From a virus, in the IMG/VR virus record IMGVR_UViG_3300026519_000642, positions 1 to 48,228 of that record: 48,228 nucleotides of DNA. One strand, written 5' to 3'. The position numbers were made by a program, and so were the translations under genes. The notes under the pieces are model-generated. The model did not search any database and was not told the origin of the DNA. It saw only the letters and a list, made by a program, of their open reading frames with translations. The stretch's first letter is position 1, and each line of letters starts with the position of its first letter. Of this stretch, positions 5,111 through 27,713 are shown in pieces.

Positions 5111-6424
5111 ATGTCAAAAATATATATCAAAAAAAACGTCTTACAGGCCATGCAAAAACGCTTGGAATACATCTTTAACGAATTTGACAACATTTATGTT
5201 GCATTCTCAGGCGGAAAGGATTCCGGTTTACTGCTAAATCTCACGCTCAAATACATGCGTGAGAACAACATCTCCCGCAAAATCGGAGTGATGCACATGG
5301 ACTACGAAGCTCAGTACACTGTCACAAACGAATACGTTGACCTTACCTTGTCATCAAATCATGATCTGATAGAGCCGTTTTGGCTATGCCTGCCTATGTC
5401 TGTGCCTTGTACCACATCCATGCATCAATCCGCATGGATACCCTGGAATCCAGAAGAAAAAGACATCTGGGTTAGAGACATGCCAAATCATGACTACGTG
5501 ATAAACCTGGAAAATCATCATTTTGACTGGTACGAACAGGGCATGATTGATTACAACGTTCAAAACAAATTCTTAAAATGGTATCACCAGCGGCAAGGTG
5601 GCGGAAAGACCTGCTGTCTGGTCGGTATTCGTACCCAAGAGAGTTTGCACCGATTTACCGCTATCGTGAATAAGCAGGATATGCACGATGGCAAAATCTG
5701 GACAACCAATGCATGGAAAAACATGTGCGCGGCCTATCCACTCTACGACTGGGAAGTGGATGACATTTGGACAGCCAATGCCAAGTTTGGTTTTGACTAT
5801 AACAAAATCTATGACTTGATGCACTATGCAGGCATAAAACCACATAATATGCGGGTGGCCAGTCCGTTTCTTGGAACCGCTCAAGAGTCATTAAACCAGT
5901 ACCGGATTATTGAGCCAAAAACGTGGGGTAGACTCATTGGCCGTGTCAATGGCGCAAACTTCACCGCGATTTATGGTGGCACAAAAGCTATGGCTTTTAA
6001 AAAAATAACATTGCCAAAAGATCACACATGGAAAAGTTATCTTGAGTTCCTGTTGAACACACTGCCTGAAGACACTCGTAACAAATACCTGGAAAAATTT
6101 AATTCCAGCATTAAATACTGGACAGAAAAAGGTGGAGCAGTTGATGTTGAAACAGTCAAAGAACTTCGCGCGGTGAATGCTCAGTTAGAATACCTTGGTA
6201 AACCACAAAATAATCGAAACTATAAAACGGAAAAAGGATTTGTCCGGTTTAAAGAATACCCGGACGATATGGAAATAGATGATTTCCAGTCTGTTCCATC
6301 ATACAAACGCATGTGCATCTGCATCATGAAAAACGATTATGCATGTCAATATATGGGATTCAAATTGACCAAGGCCGACATGCAACGGCGCAAAGCGGCC
6401 ATTGCCAAATATAAAGACATATAG
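5111..6424 (+). CDS. ibrA: IbrA-like PAPS-reductase-fold protein (437 aa)
   Basis: A member of the adenine-nucleotide alpha-hydrolase/PAPS-reductase fold, with the P-loop-like SGGKDSG at residues 33-39 (YVAFSGGKDSGLLL), a following HMDYEAQY strand, and the large C-terminal extension typical of DUF3440/IbrA proteins. Family members bind ATP or PAPS and typically adenylate a substrate or act on sulfur; the exact reaction of IbrA proteins is not established. In E. coli, IbrA and IbrB together stimulate expression of immunoglobulin-binding eib genes. Here the IbrB-type gene is two genes downstream, with a GNAT-like gene between. The gap to the next gene is only nine bases, so they form an operon. 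The many Trp and Cys residues in the C-terminal part may bind metal. Confidence 0.85.
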   Translation: MSKIYIKKNVLQAMQKRLEYIFNEFDNIYVAFSGGKDSGLLLNLTLKYMRENNISRKIGVMHMDYEAQYTVTNEYVDLTLSSNHDLIEPFWLCLPMSVPCTTSMHQSAWIPWNPEEKDIWVRDMPNHDYVINLENHHFDWYEQGMIDYNVQNKFLKWYHQRQGGGKTCCLVGIRTQESLHRFTAIVNKQDMHDGKIWTTNAWKNMCAAYPLYDWEVDDIWTANAKFGFDYNKIYDLMHYAGIKPHNMRVASPFLGTAQESLNQYRIIEPKTWGRLIGRVNGANFTAIYGGTKAMAFKKITLPKDHTWKSYLEFLLNTLPEDTRNKYLEKFNSSIKYWTEKGGAVDVETVKELRAVNAQLEYLGKPQNNRNYKTEKGFVRFKEYPDDMEIDDFQSVPSYKRMCICIMKNDYACQYMGFKLTKADMQRRKAAIAKYKDI

Positions 6425-22343: not shown

Positions 22344-22825
22344 TTAGTATTCCTCCAGTTGCCATATTTTTTATAATCAAACAAATGAAGTGAATTGTTA
22401 TCTACATGTTTTTCCCAATCTTTCCTGAATTTTATTGCGGTTTTAAACGCTAACGCGGCCAGATTCACGCTAAACTCTTCAATCCTTCCAAACGGAAAAG
22501 CTTGCGTGTGTTTTTTTCCTTTATAGTCAATCCAGCTGACTGCATAGACCAGGTAGGTTAGTCCCCTTTTTTTGTAATGCCGCTGTGTTTGGCAGACGCC
22601 TAGAACGCCAGTTGATCTATTGTTTTTTGCATGTTCAATCATCCTTTTTTTTGGCAAAACAAGCATCATTTGGTCGCGGTAATTTTGCGCTGCCTTTAAC
22701 GCCTTTTTTTTGCTGCCCCATAATTTGTAAGAGAAATACCGGCTTTTTTCAGTGCCTTTTCTAACAATTCTGACTTGAAACCCGTTTTTGTCTGGCTGTG
22801 TGATGTTTTTTAATGATTGATTCAT
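22340..22825 (-). CDS. AP2-domain DNA-binding protein (161 aa)
   Basis: A 161-aa basic protein with two AP2-like DNA-binding repeats: GFQVRIVRKGTEKSRYFSYK with LWGSKKKALKAAQNYRD, and a second starting RSTGVLGVCQTQRHYKKRG with TYLVYAVSWIDYKGKKHTQ and LAALAFKTAIKFRKDWE. AP2 domains in phages occur in integrase- or homing-nuclease-linked proteins and bind DNA. The ATG at 22825 overlaps the integrase stop (TAATG), so it is translated with the integrase and may assist recombination, possibly as a directionality or accessory factor. That role is inferred. Confidence 0.7.
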   Translation of the reverse strand: MNQSLKNITQPDKNGFQVRIVRKGTEKSRYFSYKLWGSKKKALKAAQNYRDQMMLVLPKKRMIEHAKNNRSTGVLGVCQTQRHYKKRGLTYLVYAVSWIDYKGKKHTQAFPFGRIEEFSVNLAALAFKTAIKFRKDWEKHVDNNSLHLFDYKKYGNWRNTN

Positions 22826-23841
22826 TAAATATCTAAATCCCCTGGGTCCAGGTTTGCATAGCGTTTTAATGTGTTCCATGAACTATGCAGTGTGACTTGT
22901 TGCACCTCGACAATACTTAATCCGCGTTCAAATAATCGGCTAGTGGCCTCGTGTCGTAAATCGTGCATCCTTAAATCTTTAATATTGAGTAGTCGGCATG
23001 CGTTTGTAAAATAAGTGCTGATGGTTCTGGCATTGTAAGGAAATATTTTTTTATCAATTTTAGGTTGTTTAATGACTATTTTATAAGCACTTTTTGACAA
23101 TTTAAAGCGTTTTTTAATGCCTTTTTTCCTTGGGTCTTTCATGTTTTTTAACAGGCATGTTTTATTATCGTGGTTAATGTCGTTCCATTCAAGCCTCATA
23201 ATTTCACTCTCGCGCCTGGCTGAATAAATGGCAAACCACATAATGTGCAGCATTGGAATTGTTTTTTGTGTGTCATAAAAATAGCGTGATAATTGCCAAA
23301 GCTCCTCTTTTGTCGGTCGTCTGTCTCGATGACTTGATTTTGCAATCAGCCCTTCTGTTCTTAGAATTTCTCGCGCTTTGTCGAAAATGGTTAAATCTAC
23401 GCTAATATCTAAAATTCCTGACATGGTTTTAATCACGCCATTTAGCCAGATCAAATCATTGGTAGCTGTTTGCGGCTGGCACTCTGTATTTCTAATTCTG
23501 ATGTGGCGTATTAAATCCCTCTCATTTAATTTGTTAACATCTATTTTTGCAATATCGCGGGTCATTAATTTATTAAGATCAAAGTTTTTTGATCGGCCGC
23601 TAGGCGAGAATTCTTTTAAATACGAAGCTATGACTTTTTTTATTGGCAAGTAGTCTTTTTTTTTGTAAATAGTTTGCTCTTGTAATTCAAGCTCGCGTCG
23701 AATCGCCCAGTCTTTTGCTAGTTTGCGCTTACTAAAACTTTTTTTCTCTCTGTGTACGATTTGACTGTGCTTTCTAATTTTTATTGATGCGTCATAAATA
23801 ATGCTACCATCTGCCTTTAGTCTTTTTGTTATAGATGCCAT
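22825..23841 (-). CDS. int: Tyrosine integrase, DusA-type (338 aa)
   Basis: A 338-aa tyrosine recombinase. Catalytic residues are visible: R210 (SARRESEI), a candidate K near 232-235, H293 and R296 (HDLRHE), H319 (TLHSSW) and nucleophile Y328 (LKRYANL). The N-terminal 60 residues are a basic arm-binding region (MASITKRLKADGSIIYDASI), followed by a core-binding helical domain. Next to the gene is an attP that contains the start of dusA, which indicates integration into the tRNA-dihydrouridine synthase gene of the host. The length is a little below the 380-400 aa typical of the family. It has the convergent tail gene downstream, and is followed by the AP2 protein. Confidence 0.95.
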   Translation of the reverse strand: MASITKRLKADGSIIYDASIKIRKHSQIVHREKKSFSKRKLAKDWAIRRELELQEQTIYKKKDYLPIKKVIASYLKEFSPSGRSKNFDLNKLMTRDIAKIDVNKLNERDLIRHIRIRNTECQPQTATNDLIWLNGVIKTMSGILDISVDLTIFDKAREILRTEGLIAKSSHRDRRPTKEELWQLSRYFYDTQKTIPMLHIMWFAIYSARRESEIMRLEWNDINHDNKTCLLKNMKDPRKKGIKKRFKLSKSAYKIVIKQPKIDKKIFPYNARTISTYFTNACRLLNIKDLRMHDLRHEATSRLFERGLSIVEVQQVTLHSSWNTLKRYANLDPGDLDI

Positions 23842-23860: not shown

Positions 23861-24049
23861 TGTCCCCATGTAAATCATGGGGCCAGTATGGGTACTAATT
23901 GACAAATAATAAACAAAAATAAACATACAAACAACAGTAAAAGCATGAATAAAGTTAAAAGATTGTTTTCCGTAGCACCAATGCTCGATTGGACGGATTG
24001 CTTATAATTTTCAAATGGTTAGGCCATTCATGGGCCGTATATGGGGACA
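23861..24049. other. attP region for integration into dusA
   Basis: Between the integrase and the 24068 gene lies a segment with the dusA start at 23945-24007, flanked by inverted arm-like repeats: TGTCCCCAT (23861-23869) and ATGGGGACA (24041-24049). CCCCATG-TAAAT-CATGGGG (23864-23882) is a local palindrome, and GGGCC or GGG motifs recur (23881-23892, 24033-24036). Such arm repeats on both sides of a crossover site are typical of lambda-like attP sites. The crossover should fall within the dusA-matching bases. An intact attP means that this is a phage, not an integrated, form. Confidence 0.8.
23945..24007 (+). other. dusA 5' end carried by the phage (restores the host gene)
   Basis: ATG 23945 begins a 20-codon frame: MNKVKRLFSVAPMLDWTDCL, then TAA. 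FSVAPMLDWTD equals the strictly conserved start of bacterial DusA. After integration the phage copy of this start would be joined to the rest of host dusA, giving it a phage-supplied start codon and leader. TTGACA at 23899-23904 is a possible -35, though no good -10 follows. Beyond the match, the phage frame ends at once, as expected if the crossover lies just before. Confidence 0.85.
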
Positions 24050-24067: not shown

Positions 24068-24331
24068 ATGCAATTGCCACCAAAAAATATTTTCAAAGGT
24101 AAAAAACTGACTCGGTATGAAAGACATTTGTTATTTTTTTTCAAAAAAAGTAGTGATGGCAAATGGTGTAAATCTGATGATGCTTTAAACGAAATAGAAT
24201 ATTTTTATAACAAGGCAAATTATTTTTACAAAATAGTTAACGATCTTTCTGAGCTGTTAGCAACTGAGAAAGAAAAAAATAATCATCTTGTTGATGTTAT
24301 AAAGCAATTCGAGAAAATTAATTGTGAATAA
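24068..24331 (+). CDS. Small helical protein (87 aa)
   Basis: An 87-aa basic helical protein (LTRYERHLLFFFKKSSDGKW; a C-terminal coiled coil from NEIEYFYNKANYFYKIVNDL). An upstream in-frame ATG at 24041 lies within the attP arm repeat, so ATG 24068 is chosen. It overlaps the lipoprotein gene by eight bases. Not recognised. Confidence 0.55.
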   Translation: MQLPPKNIFKGKKLTRYERHLLFFFKKSSDGKWCKSDDALNEIEYFYNKANYFYKIVNDLSELLATEKEKNNHLVDVIKQFEKINCE

Positions 24332-24767
24332 ATTTTTAATTTTTGTTTCATTGTTGCTTGGAGGGTGTGCCACATTTGATACGCCTGTAAAGCCGATAGC
24401 CCAAGACGAGACAGCCTGTGTGTATATCGCAAATCTTGGGGAGATTTTATCTACATACGCTGTTTACAATCGCCAGGCGGACTATGGCGGTACTATAGGA
24501 TACCAAAACGCGGAGATTGGTGGAAATACAGAGATTAAAAATGAATTTATAGCATTGCAAGATCGTCTAGGCCAGCAAGCGGCAACAATCAACAATGTGG
24601 TTAAGTCAATTGTTGTCATGCATAACAAAAATTGTGAACAGTACAATACTGATCGTGCATGGGATTCAATGGATAAATTAATTAAAGGATTAGAAAAAGT
24701 TTATGGAAAAGTTTTTATTAAATACGGTGCGTCTGAAAATCGAGTGGCTCCCGTTGTTGTTGATTAA
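24324..24767 (+). CDS. Lipoprotein (147 aa)
   Basis: A 147-aa protein with a lipoprotein signal MNKFLIFVSLLLGGCATFDT: short basic start, hydrophobic core and lipobox LLGGC with Cys 15. The start is GTG 24324, inside the preceding frame. The mature part is a helical protein with two further Cys and coiled-coil-like segments (ALQDRLGQQAATINNVVKSI). It sits next to attP and integrase, a common place for genes expressed in the lysogen, so surface modification or superinfection exclusion is possible; neither is shown. Confidence 0.7.
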   Translation: MNKFLIFVSLLLGGCATFDTPVKPIAQDETACVYIANLGEILSTYAVYNRQADYGGTIGYQNAEIGGNTEIKNEFIALQDRLGQQAATINNVVKSIVVMHNKNCEQYNTDRAWDSMDKLIKGLEKVYGKVFIKYGASENRVAPVVVD

Positions 24768-24808: not shown

Positions 24809-25309
24809 TTATTTTGCATTTTTAATTTCCTCATCTGTGTATTTCTCCGTGTTTTCACTGTTCCACAAGCGCATTTCATAGGCATCAGGATTTCCATTCA
24901 TGTGCTCTGATTTGGAATATTTCTCCGCGTTTTTTATATTCCAACAGCGCATTTTATACTCAGTTGGATCAGCTTTTTGATGTTCTTCCTTGGAATATTT
25001 CTCCTCGTTTTTTATGTTCCACCAGCGCATATCATCCGCAGTTGGACCAGCTTTTTGATGTTCTTCCTTGGAATATTTCTCAGCGTTTTCTTCATTCCAC
25101 CAGCGCATACCATACGCAGTTGGGACAGCCTTTTGATGTTCTTCCTTGGAATATTTCTCCTCGTTTTTTATGTTCCACCAGCGCATATCATCCGCAGTTG
25201 GACCAGCTTTTTGATGTTCTTCCTTGGAATATTTCTCCTCGTTTTCACTGTTCCACAAGCGCATTTCATCCGCAGTTGTATTAGTTTTTTTATGTTCTGA
25301 TTTAGTCAT
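24809..25309 (-). CDS. Trp-rich tandem-repeat protein (166 aa)
   Basis: A 166-aa protein built from a 26-residue unit repeated five times between partial end units. The consensus is EKYSKEEHQKAGPTADDMRW followed by WNIKNE. Units 2 and 4 are identical; units 3, 5 and 6 have a few changes. It has a very regular Glu/Lys pattern, with one Trp-Trp or aromatic pair per unit, no signal peptide and no catalytic motif. A one-repeat paralogue with nearly the same N- and C-termini is encoded at 28173-28283. Its start overlaps the stop of the HTH gene at 25306 (ATGA). Repeat-scaffold or multivalent binding protein; function unknown. Confidence 0.85.
   Translation of the reverse strand: MTKSEHKKTNTTADEMRLWNSENEEKYSKEEHQKAGPTADDMRWWNIKNEEKYSKEEHQKAVPTAYGMRWWNEENAEKYSKEEHQKAGPTADDMRWWNIKNEEKYSKEEHQKADPTEYKMRCWNIKNAEKYSKSEHMNGNPDAYEMRLWNSENTEKYTDEEIKNAK
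24840..25240 (-). repeat. Tandem 78-bp coding repeats
   Basis: The gene at 24809-25309 carries a 78-bp unit (26 codons) in tandem, five complete copies plus partial end copies. Identity between copies is high at the DNA level, including the exact repeat of the unit encoding KEEHQKAGPTADDMRWWN. Such arrays expand and contract by slippage and unequal recombination. They encode protein in one frame and lack spacer-repeat alternation, so this is not a CRISPR array. Confidence 0.9.
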
Positions 25310-25545: not shown

Positions 25546-25962
25546 TCACAGTAATTCATTGTTTTTATAAATATTTACAACAATTTCGCGAGTTCTTAAA
25601 TCAGCAACAGTGTATTTTTTAATTGCTTGTTTTCTACCTAACACGCTACCTGCGCCATGTGAACATGAGCAGAAAGATTCCTTATTTCCCTTACCTTTTA
25701 CAATAAAAGACTTCGCAACCATCGAGCCTGGAATAATACCTAAATCAACACCAACAGCAGCTGGCATTATTGCGCCTTTGCTTGGTATTACGCTTCCAAT
25801 AGCTGCACCTATGCCCCAGTGAACATCAGGCATTACTGCAATATGCTTATGAATAAAAGGAAGTTTCGACATATTCTCGAGCTGTAAGAGAGCGTTATCA
25901 TCTATCTGGTCAGTCCAAACTTTGACTAGCATATCTTTTTTAATCATTTTCATTACTGGCAT
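25546..25962 (-). CDS. rtcB: Internally deleted RtcB-like RNA ligase (138 aa)
   Basis: RtcB is a 400-480 aa GTP- and Mn-dependent RNA ligase. This 138-aa frame joins the N-terminal motif region (MPDVHWGIGAAIGSVIPSKG and PAAVGVDLG, residues 44-75) directly to the C-terminal motif region (IPGSMVAKSF; SFCSCSHGAG, residues 76-105) and then ends early. The metal-binding Cys after GVD-G and roughly 240 middle residues with other metal-binding His residues are missing; the HGAG motif, which contains the guanylated His, is kept. The junction is in frame and no stop or frameshift is seen. It may be a decayed gene or a small derivative with another role, such as an inhibitor of the host RtcB. The start is ATG 25962, after the promoter at 25995-26023. 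Confidence 0.8.
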   Translation of the reverse strand: MPVMKMIKKDMLVKVWTDQIDDNALLQLENMSKLPFIHKHIAVMPDVHWGIGAAIGSVIPSKGAIMPAAVGVDLGIIPGSMVAKSFIVKGKGNKESFCSCSHGAGSVLGRKQAIKKYTVADLRTREIVVNIYKNNELL

Positions 25963-26023: not shown

Positions 26024-26622
26024 CTACTTTTATTTACTTTTTGTATTTCATTCATAGTTATTTCTAATTTAACTAACGCTTTCACTGATGGTTTTATCGG
26101 TTCTGCAATTTCAGAATATCTGTATTGATTCAATTTTAGGTTTTCTGTTTTTTTTATGCACTCAAGGTTTTCAATAGCGCAGTTTTGTTTATCGCCGTCT
26201 TTGAATGTAATAATTGAGTCATCTGGGATAGGTCCATAATGACTTTCATAAACCAATCGGTGCTTGAGTTTAAATTTATTTTTGCCGGGTTCTGTTTTTA
26301 TGTATACATAGCCCTCAGAATCTATGCGTTCAAAACCAACTGGTTTAACGTTTTTTGGAACATGACCTTTTTTAAAACTTGTCCTGTTTGCTCCAACATC
26401 CATTTTTTTGCCTTTGTTGTGAGGAAGGTGGTTTTTTTTAAAATAGCCTGTTCTTCCCGTTAGCCAGCTGTTTCGTTGACATAATCCAGCTATTGCGTTT
26501 TGTGTAAATTCAGTATTAAATTTTTTATTTAGTAGTTGTGTGAGTTCTTTTCGAGGCTTTTTACAATTTTCTTTAATCCAATTTAATTGTTCCTCTGTGT
26601 ATTCGTTTTCTACGCCTTTCAT
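26020..26622 (-). CDS. HNH homing-type endonuclease (200 aa)
   Basis: A 200-aa protein with two basic GHVP-like loops (FKKNHLPHNKGKK and SFKKGHVPKNVK, residues 61-92) and an HNH core: HRLVYESHYGPIPDD with H121, then ITFKDGDKQNCAIENL with N147. The usual middle His of the H-N-H box appears as Phe140 here, so activity may be changed. Such enzymes nick or cut DNA and are often mobile. The C-terminal 40 residues are a helical extension. It lies in the early operon, overlaps the 74-aa gene by four bases, and the copy C promoter overlaps its end. Confidence 0.75.
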   Translation of the reverse strand: MKGVENEYTEEQLNWIKENCKKPRKELTQLLNKKFNTEFTQNAIAGLCQRNSWLTGRTGYFKKNHLPHNKGKKMDVGANRTSFKKGHVPKNVKPVGFERIDSEGYVYIKTEPGKNKFKLKHRLVYESHYGPIPDDSIITFKDGDKQNCAIENLECIKKTENLKLNQYRYSEIAEPIKPSVKALVKLEITMNEIQKVNKSS

Positions 26623-26843
26623 TTTAGTATTTTTGGCAGTTCTTTTTGTTCTGGGATGTCGTGTATTTGCACTTGAGCGTCTAATACTAATTGAGCATTT
26701 GAAATAACCTGACGTGCAACATCTGTGATGTTTCTTGTTCTTATACTTTCCATTTCTAATTTATCCGGTGTTATTTTTTCATCACTCAATCGTTCAATTT
26801 GTGCAAATAAATGATTGTTTAAATCAGTCAGTGTGTTTTTCAT
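26619..26843 (-). CDS. Small helical early protein (74 aa)
   Basis: A 74-aa helical protein (LNNHLFAQIERLSDEKITPD; IRTRNITDVARQVISNAQLV). Similar small genes occur just before HNH genes in other phages; function unknown. Its start lies 20 bases inside the methyltransferase-like gene and its stop overlaps the HNH start. Confidence 0.6.
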   Translation of the reverse strand: MKNTLTDLNNHLFAQIERLSDEKITPDKLEMESIRTRNITDVARQVISNAQLVLDAQVQIHDIPEQKELPKILK

Positions 26844-27277: not shown

Positions 27278-27511
27278 TTATCCGTGCCTCATTCCACGCC
27301 TTTTTTCTAAATAATCGCCAAAATCATAAACATCAACTAGCCACGGTGATTTGTTGCTGTCAACTACTTTAAATATATTGAATGGAACATCGCCAGACGA
27401 TGCTTTTCTGATTGTATATTCATCAGCCCAGCCTAGATATTTTTTAGCTATTGTTGTTAGTTGTGGGTATCTTGTTTGAAATTCATTTTTTAAATCATCG
27501 CCTGCTGACAT
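27278..27511 (-). CDS. PrtN-like (pyocin activator family) protein (77 aa)
   Basis: A 77-aa DNA-binding protein with the pyocin-activator layout: YPQLTTIAKKYLGWADEYTI, RKASSGDVPFNIFKVVDSNK, then SPWLVDVYDFGDYLEKRR. PrtN itself activates bacteriocin/phage late genes in Pseudomonas; phage relatives are regulators. The start at 27511 is chosen because AGAGAGG lies six bases upstream, rather than ATG 27538. It may switch on late phage genes from its place in the early operon. Confidence 0.7.
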   Translation of the reverse strand: MSAGDDLKNEFQTRYPQLTTIAKKYLGWADEYTIRKASSGDVPFNIFKVVDSNKSPWLVDVYDFGDYLEKRRGMRHG

Positions 27512-27521
27512 GATTGCCTCT

Positions 27522-27713
27522 CTAGTAAATACGTTCAATTGCTGTTTTGTTTGATAGCTCTAATTTTGCTTTTAGAATAAATGCAAATTCAAACCATCCG
27601 CGCGGTTTATTTTTTGGTTTGTATATGTCTTTTTCCATTTTTAATTCCATTTTTATTATTTCGAGCAGTTCTTTATGTGTTTCCATCATCATTTTTGCTG
27701 TTTCAATGTTCAT
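27522..27713 (-). CDS. Small helical protein (63 aa)
   Basis: A 63-aa helical protein (MNIETAKMMMETHKELLEII, then KPRGWFEFAFILKAKLELSN). ATG 27713 lies 11 bases after the SSB stop. The frame extends further upstream, but only over SSB in another frame. Function unknown. Confidence 0.55.
   Translation of the reverse strand: MNIETAKMMMETHKELLEIIKMELKMEKDIYKPKNKPRGWFEFAFILKAKLELSNKTAIERIY

Follow-up and report, generated by a model that had tools for sequence, protein, structure and literature searches.

A probable dusA-specific attachment site in a phage genome with relatives at dusA in methanotroph chromosomes

The dusA stub, the integrase and neighbouring genes

The window, by which we mean the whole 48,228-base stretch of DNA analysed here, makes up the entire virus record. 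It carries terminase, portal, scaffold, major head, tape measure and tail genes and also codes for a Peptidase_S24/HTH repressor and RecT/YqaJ; together, these structural, repressor and RecT/YqaJ genes indicate a temperate tailed phage. A plus-strand frame of 20 codons (23945–24007) translates to MNKVKRLFSVAPMLDWTDCL followed by a stop. The original prediction had read this frame, with its FSVAPMLDWTD, as the N-terminus of DusA, and the reading holds at exactly these coordinates: the stub corresponds to the DusA N-terminus of integrated relatives, and a six-frame search of the window for the pattern [VI]AP[MLI][ML][DE]W gave a single match, compared with none in 300 mononucleotide shuffles. 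The stub consists of a phage ATG, a variable leader, FSVAPMLDWTD and the stop. The codons for VAPMLDWTD (23972–23998, plus strand) form the region common with host dusA and are conserved in the attP, attL and attR of relatives; the crossover between phage and host dusA is proposed to lie somewhere within this core. At the DNA level, a search of the GenBank phage collection with attP matched only a core of 27–32 bp, in Vibrio and Salinivibrio phages. Since attP is unbroken in the middle of the record and its dusA stub ends in a stop, the record represents the unintegrated form.

The stub diverges from the gene of a 338-aa tyrosine recombinase 103 bp away (22825–23841, minus strand), which matches PF00589 Phage_integrase (E 1.4e-17) and is the adjoining integrase that had been predicted. 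HDLRH and a C-terminal RY are invariant in its alignment with relatives. The enzyme is homologous over nearly its full length to the integrases of phages mEp460, BcepMigl and BcepIL02, which are listed as dusA-associated integrases (DAIs; PMC4482086), and this homology together with the PF00589 match places it, on sequence grounds, in the DAI family. It is a distant member, with 36–43% identity to the integrases of named phages; those of Enterobacteria phage mEp460, Marinobacter phage AS1 and Burkholderia phage BcepMigl are homologous to it over 98–99% of the length and yet only 36–42% identical. Identity rises to 40–54% for integrases adjoining dusA in methanotroph genomes. A family-wide integrase search returned many ordinary, distant tyrosine recombinases and only ~8–10 close relatives.

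Across attP from int lies the minus-strand gene of a probable recombination directionality factor (RDF), a PrtN/RdfN homologue (27278–27538; PF11112 PyocinActivator, E 2.2e-10; phrog_1300 excisionase, E 1.4e-12). PrtN homologues are present in 60 of 94 dusA islands (PMC4482086), and RdfN, the PrtN homologue of IMEVchUSA3, is the only element protein besides Int required for excision of that element (PMC8409611); by analogy, the phage homologue probably directs excision. IMEVchUSA3 is a dusA-specific, SGI1-like mobilizable island of Vibrio, whereas the element described here is a phage.

Farrugia et al. described an integrase family that targets the 5′ end of dusA, elements whose sequence replaces that 5′ end, and a frequent PrtN homologue (PMC4482086). 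The window system is a dusA-associated integrase system of this kind: it shares the integrase family, the dusA-matching core, the in-frame replacement start and the PrtN/RdfN homologue, and its integrase gene lies beside the dusA stub of attP, as those of its genomic relatives lie beside dusA. Their elements come mainly from Acinetobacter, Pseudomonas, Escherichia and other proteobacteria, while the close relatives of the window are found mainly in methanotrophs. Our literature search found no paper on prophages at dusA in methanotrophs.

Just past attP, a plus-strand gene (24324–24767) encodes a probable lipoprotein that matches an Rz-like spanin family only very weakly, and the minus-strand gene that follows (24809–25309) encodes 166 residues, mostly ~26-residue repeats, with no convincing family match; the lipobox-like LLGGCATFD of the former and the repeat unit of the latter, which resembles EEHQKAGPTADDMRWWNIKNEEKYSK, were read directly from the sequence. 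A 138-aa RtcB-like protein (25546–25962, minus strand) joins N- and C-terminal RNA ligase parts in one frame. Its end part aligns to positions 320–387 of the Pfam profile, and ~190 residues, starting at the GVDxGCG cysteine region, are absent; RtcB-like matches in other phages span more than 1 kb. Its size could reflect decay, a deletion or a short variant. The 74-aa product of 26619–26843 (minus strand) matches phrog_2044 (E 3.3e-24), whose label, 'RNA polymerase beta subunit', looks doubtful for so short a protein. Farther away, 5111–6424 (plus strand) encodes a 437-aa phosphoadenosine phosphosulfate reductase-like protein (E 7.5e-108).

Repeated motifs around the core

The original prediction placed the stub between two inverted arms. 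An exact inverse-complementary pair does exist, formed by probable arm-type sites TGTCCCCAT (23861–23869, plus strand) and ATGGGGACA (24041–24049, minus strand, 69 bp from the core start), but the arrangement is not one flanking pair. A further probable site, ATGGGGCCA on the plus strand (23877–23885, site on the minus strand), matches at eight of nine positions and lies 16 bp from the first, and a possible third, ATGGGTACT (23888–23896, minus strand), matches at seven of nine and lies 11 bp from the second. Past the core, a weak additional copy at 24030, in which only ATGGG is retained, is consistent with the 11 bp spacing. No shuffle of the window yielded an exact inverse pair within 250 bp. 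Across the window as a whole, TGTCCCCAT with one mismatch allowed is no more frequent than expected by chance, so the significance of the arms lies in their local arrangement and not in the word itself; the inverted-repeat score of the near pair, taken alone, is not significant (p 0.24).

The same layout, with different motifs, is found in relatives. The 16–17 bp spacing of the first two sites recurs, a third site at 11–12 bp is also present in L031, L051 and L098, and most relatives have their far-side site 57–91 bp from the start of the core. L031 carries GTCCGCAT 5 bp from the integrase start with minus-strand copies at 21 and 32, and its far arms are minus-strand copies 58 and 69 bp from the core start; matching sites were identified in L028, L002, L029, L030, L035 (motif TGTCACAT) and L050. 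An inverted repeat immediately before the integrase start reaches p ≤ 0.05 in 38 of 52 loci, and the element's own arm motif recurs past the core at the same threshold in 10 of 16 attPs.

The simplest reading is that the arms are arm-type sites, probably bound by the N-terminal domain of the integrase. Lying just upstream of int, they might instead serve as operators for an int repressor or for the RDF. We consider this unlikely as a replacement for an arm-site role, with which it may coexist, given that copies recur past the core at 57–91 bp from its start, ~11 bp apart where paired. Among 31 elements, moreover, motif similarity follows the identity of integrase residues 1–65 (partial rank correlation 0.35 given the catalytic domain, reached in 0 of 500 permutations) and not that of the catalytic domain (r 0.05, p 0.25), with the weakness that the motifs entering this correlation were picked by hand from the inverted-repeat and recurrence results.

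If the arms are indeed integrase arm sites, a more tentative suggestion follows, which we hold to be possible though somewhat less than probable: dusA elements would combine one frozen core, fixed because it must code for part of DusA, with diversified arms (GTCCCCAT, GTCCGCAT, GTACGCNT, TGTCACAT, GTGCTACA and others) whose spacing stays almost constant while they vary together with the N-terminal domain of the integrase. Such arms might then serve as an identity code that keeps each integrase on its own element despite the common attB, for example in tandem arrays. Were this pattern true, it would explain how integrases with one common chromosomal target keep their elements apart. The main texts of PMC4482086 and PMC8409611 make no mention of arms or inverted repeats, and we found no earlier description of an arm layout whose differing motifs track the integrase N-terminal domain.

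Start codon and leader

As had been claimed, the phage supplies its own start codon and leader (MNKVKRL), with the ATG at 23945 open into the core. This is not peculiar to the window phage; dusA-specific elements have been described as generally bringing a start codon and leader of their own (PMC4482086), and the strategy of carrying the dusA start in attP was described in 2015 and demonstrated experimentally in 2021. In IMEVchUSA3, expression from the element leader was demonstrated by a lacZ fusion (PMC8409611). The leader of that island has the length of the native E. coli DusA start and is 61% identical to it, whereas the leader in the window is short and unlike native starts.

An in-frame ATG open to the core is present in 14 of 15 distinct attP stubs, and the fifteenth (L029) has a GTG in frame instead. 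Shuffled leaders open into the core from an in-frame ATG in 19% of cases and the other two frames do so in 2 of 30; the corresponding binomial p of 1e-9 overstates independence, since the stubs are related. The leaders vary greatly in sequence and length while the frame is kept, a pattern better explained by selection on the frame than by a leader having been copied recently.

Upstream of the ATG, inspection picked out a possible −35 box, TTGACA (23899–23904, plus strand), that lacks a good −10 box; a promoter and terminator consensus scan at attP reported nothing, and no clear Shine-Dalgarno sequence was seen for the leader. The missing strong promoter and Shine-Dalgarno sequence would fit a stub that serves as a recombination core only, with an unselected start codon and leader and with lysogens managing without DusA, and loss of dusA in A. 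baumannii had no phenotype in the arrays tested (PMC4482086). Such a stub would nevertheless be expected to open with an in-frame ATG in about one case in five, the leaders keep the frame despite their wide divergence, and a lacZ fusion showed expression in the related element; we regard a core-only stub as highly unlikely. We favor a stub that also provides a working start, and transcription of dusA may likewise begin in phage DNA.

Integrated relatives and restored empty sites

A search of bacterial genomes for dusA next to a related integrase had been set beforehand as the test of the prediction. With an integrase alignment that included eight viral relatives as the query, the bacterial genome collection yielded 17 loci with a related integrase, in Methylococcaceae and related methanotrophs, Marinobacter and Thiolinea, and the arrangement is present in every one. 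In all 17, dusA starts divergently beside the integrase with an element-derived leader that differs between loci; the core lies 149–342 bp from the integrase start, and the dusA frame runs on for 313–323 codons. The integrase thus adjoins dusA in each genomic relative, the window record itself being unintegrated. Viral contigs have at the same position either a stub that stops soon after the core or, where the contig is an integrated prophage, a full dusA. The nearest integrase joined to a full dusA, on the integrated viral contig L032, is 60% identical to that of the window, and the DusA encoded there shares 66–71% identity with those of methanotrophs. In the viral relative L053, no core could be recognised in 2.5 kb of upstream DNA, and two others (L061 and L103) have too little upstream DNA to judge.

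The predicted insertion in the 5′ end of dusA is borne out in relatives: wherever both ends were found, the 5′ end that dusA has lost lies across the element from the integrase. Four genomes, those of Methylobacter tundripaludum, Methylovulum miyakonense and two Marinobacter, have a second dusA core on the same strand at a distance of 38–76 kb; when the flanks are joined in silico, all four regain a single continuous dusA frame of 337–347 codons. No integrase gene occurs within 3 kb around any of these four displaced stubs; stubs L126 and L131, which adjoin integrase fragments, were excluded as clean attR sites. More than one element could lie within the 76 kb interval in Methylovulum. The displaced M. 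tundripaludum stub, LISDKIKAHHPSRKFC, is similar to native dusA starts of its genus (for example LISKQNKNLHPGRKFC), unlike the sequence to which dusA is now joined, MTDNKNIKASYKPAVSRQSVGIPPARRLC; the element therefore brings a foreign DusA N-terminus and displaces the native one.

Some DAI-family integrases use other targets, namely dusB, dusC, rluA, abgT or a tRNA gene (PMC4482086), but a stub that is merely a chance or decayed capture of dusA in a phage integrating elsewhere is extremely improbable when almost every informative unintegrated relative keeps stub and integrase together at a comparable distance and all genomic relatives lie at dusA.

We are thus highly confident that the region serves as attP for a temperate tailed phage that has a dusA-associated integrase and would integrate at the dusA core, keeping the host frame by means of MNKVKRLFS. 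In the mechanism we propose, the integrase would recombine the VAPMLDWTD codons (~23972–23998) with the matching segment close to the 5′ end of dusA in the host, its N-terminal domain binding the element-specific arms around the core. The body of host dusA would then be fused to the phage start codon and leader MNKVKRLFS in an intact DusA frame, giving a hybrid DusA predicted to begin MNKVKRLFSVAPMLDWTD and to continue with the part encoded by the host gene, and the original dusA 5′ end would remain as a short stub at the other end of the prophage. Excision would be directed by the PrtN/RdfN homologue (27278–27538). We found no lysogen of the window phage; the most likely host is a gammaproteobacterial methanotroph, because the closest integrase relatives come from there. 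A known integration strategy is thereby extended to phages of probable methanotroph hosts, and the integration site and hybrid DusA of such phages are now predictable.

Marinobacter xestospongiae carries the same dusA leader twice (L131:1092 and L120:1501), one copy joined to dusA and the other before a stub with an integrase fragment alongside. The repetition points to a second element or a duplicated one, to an excised circle that was assembled separately, or to some other effect of the assembly.
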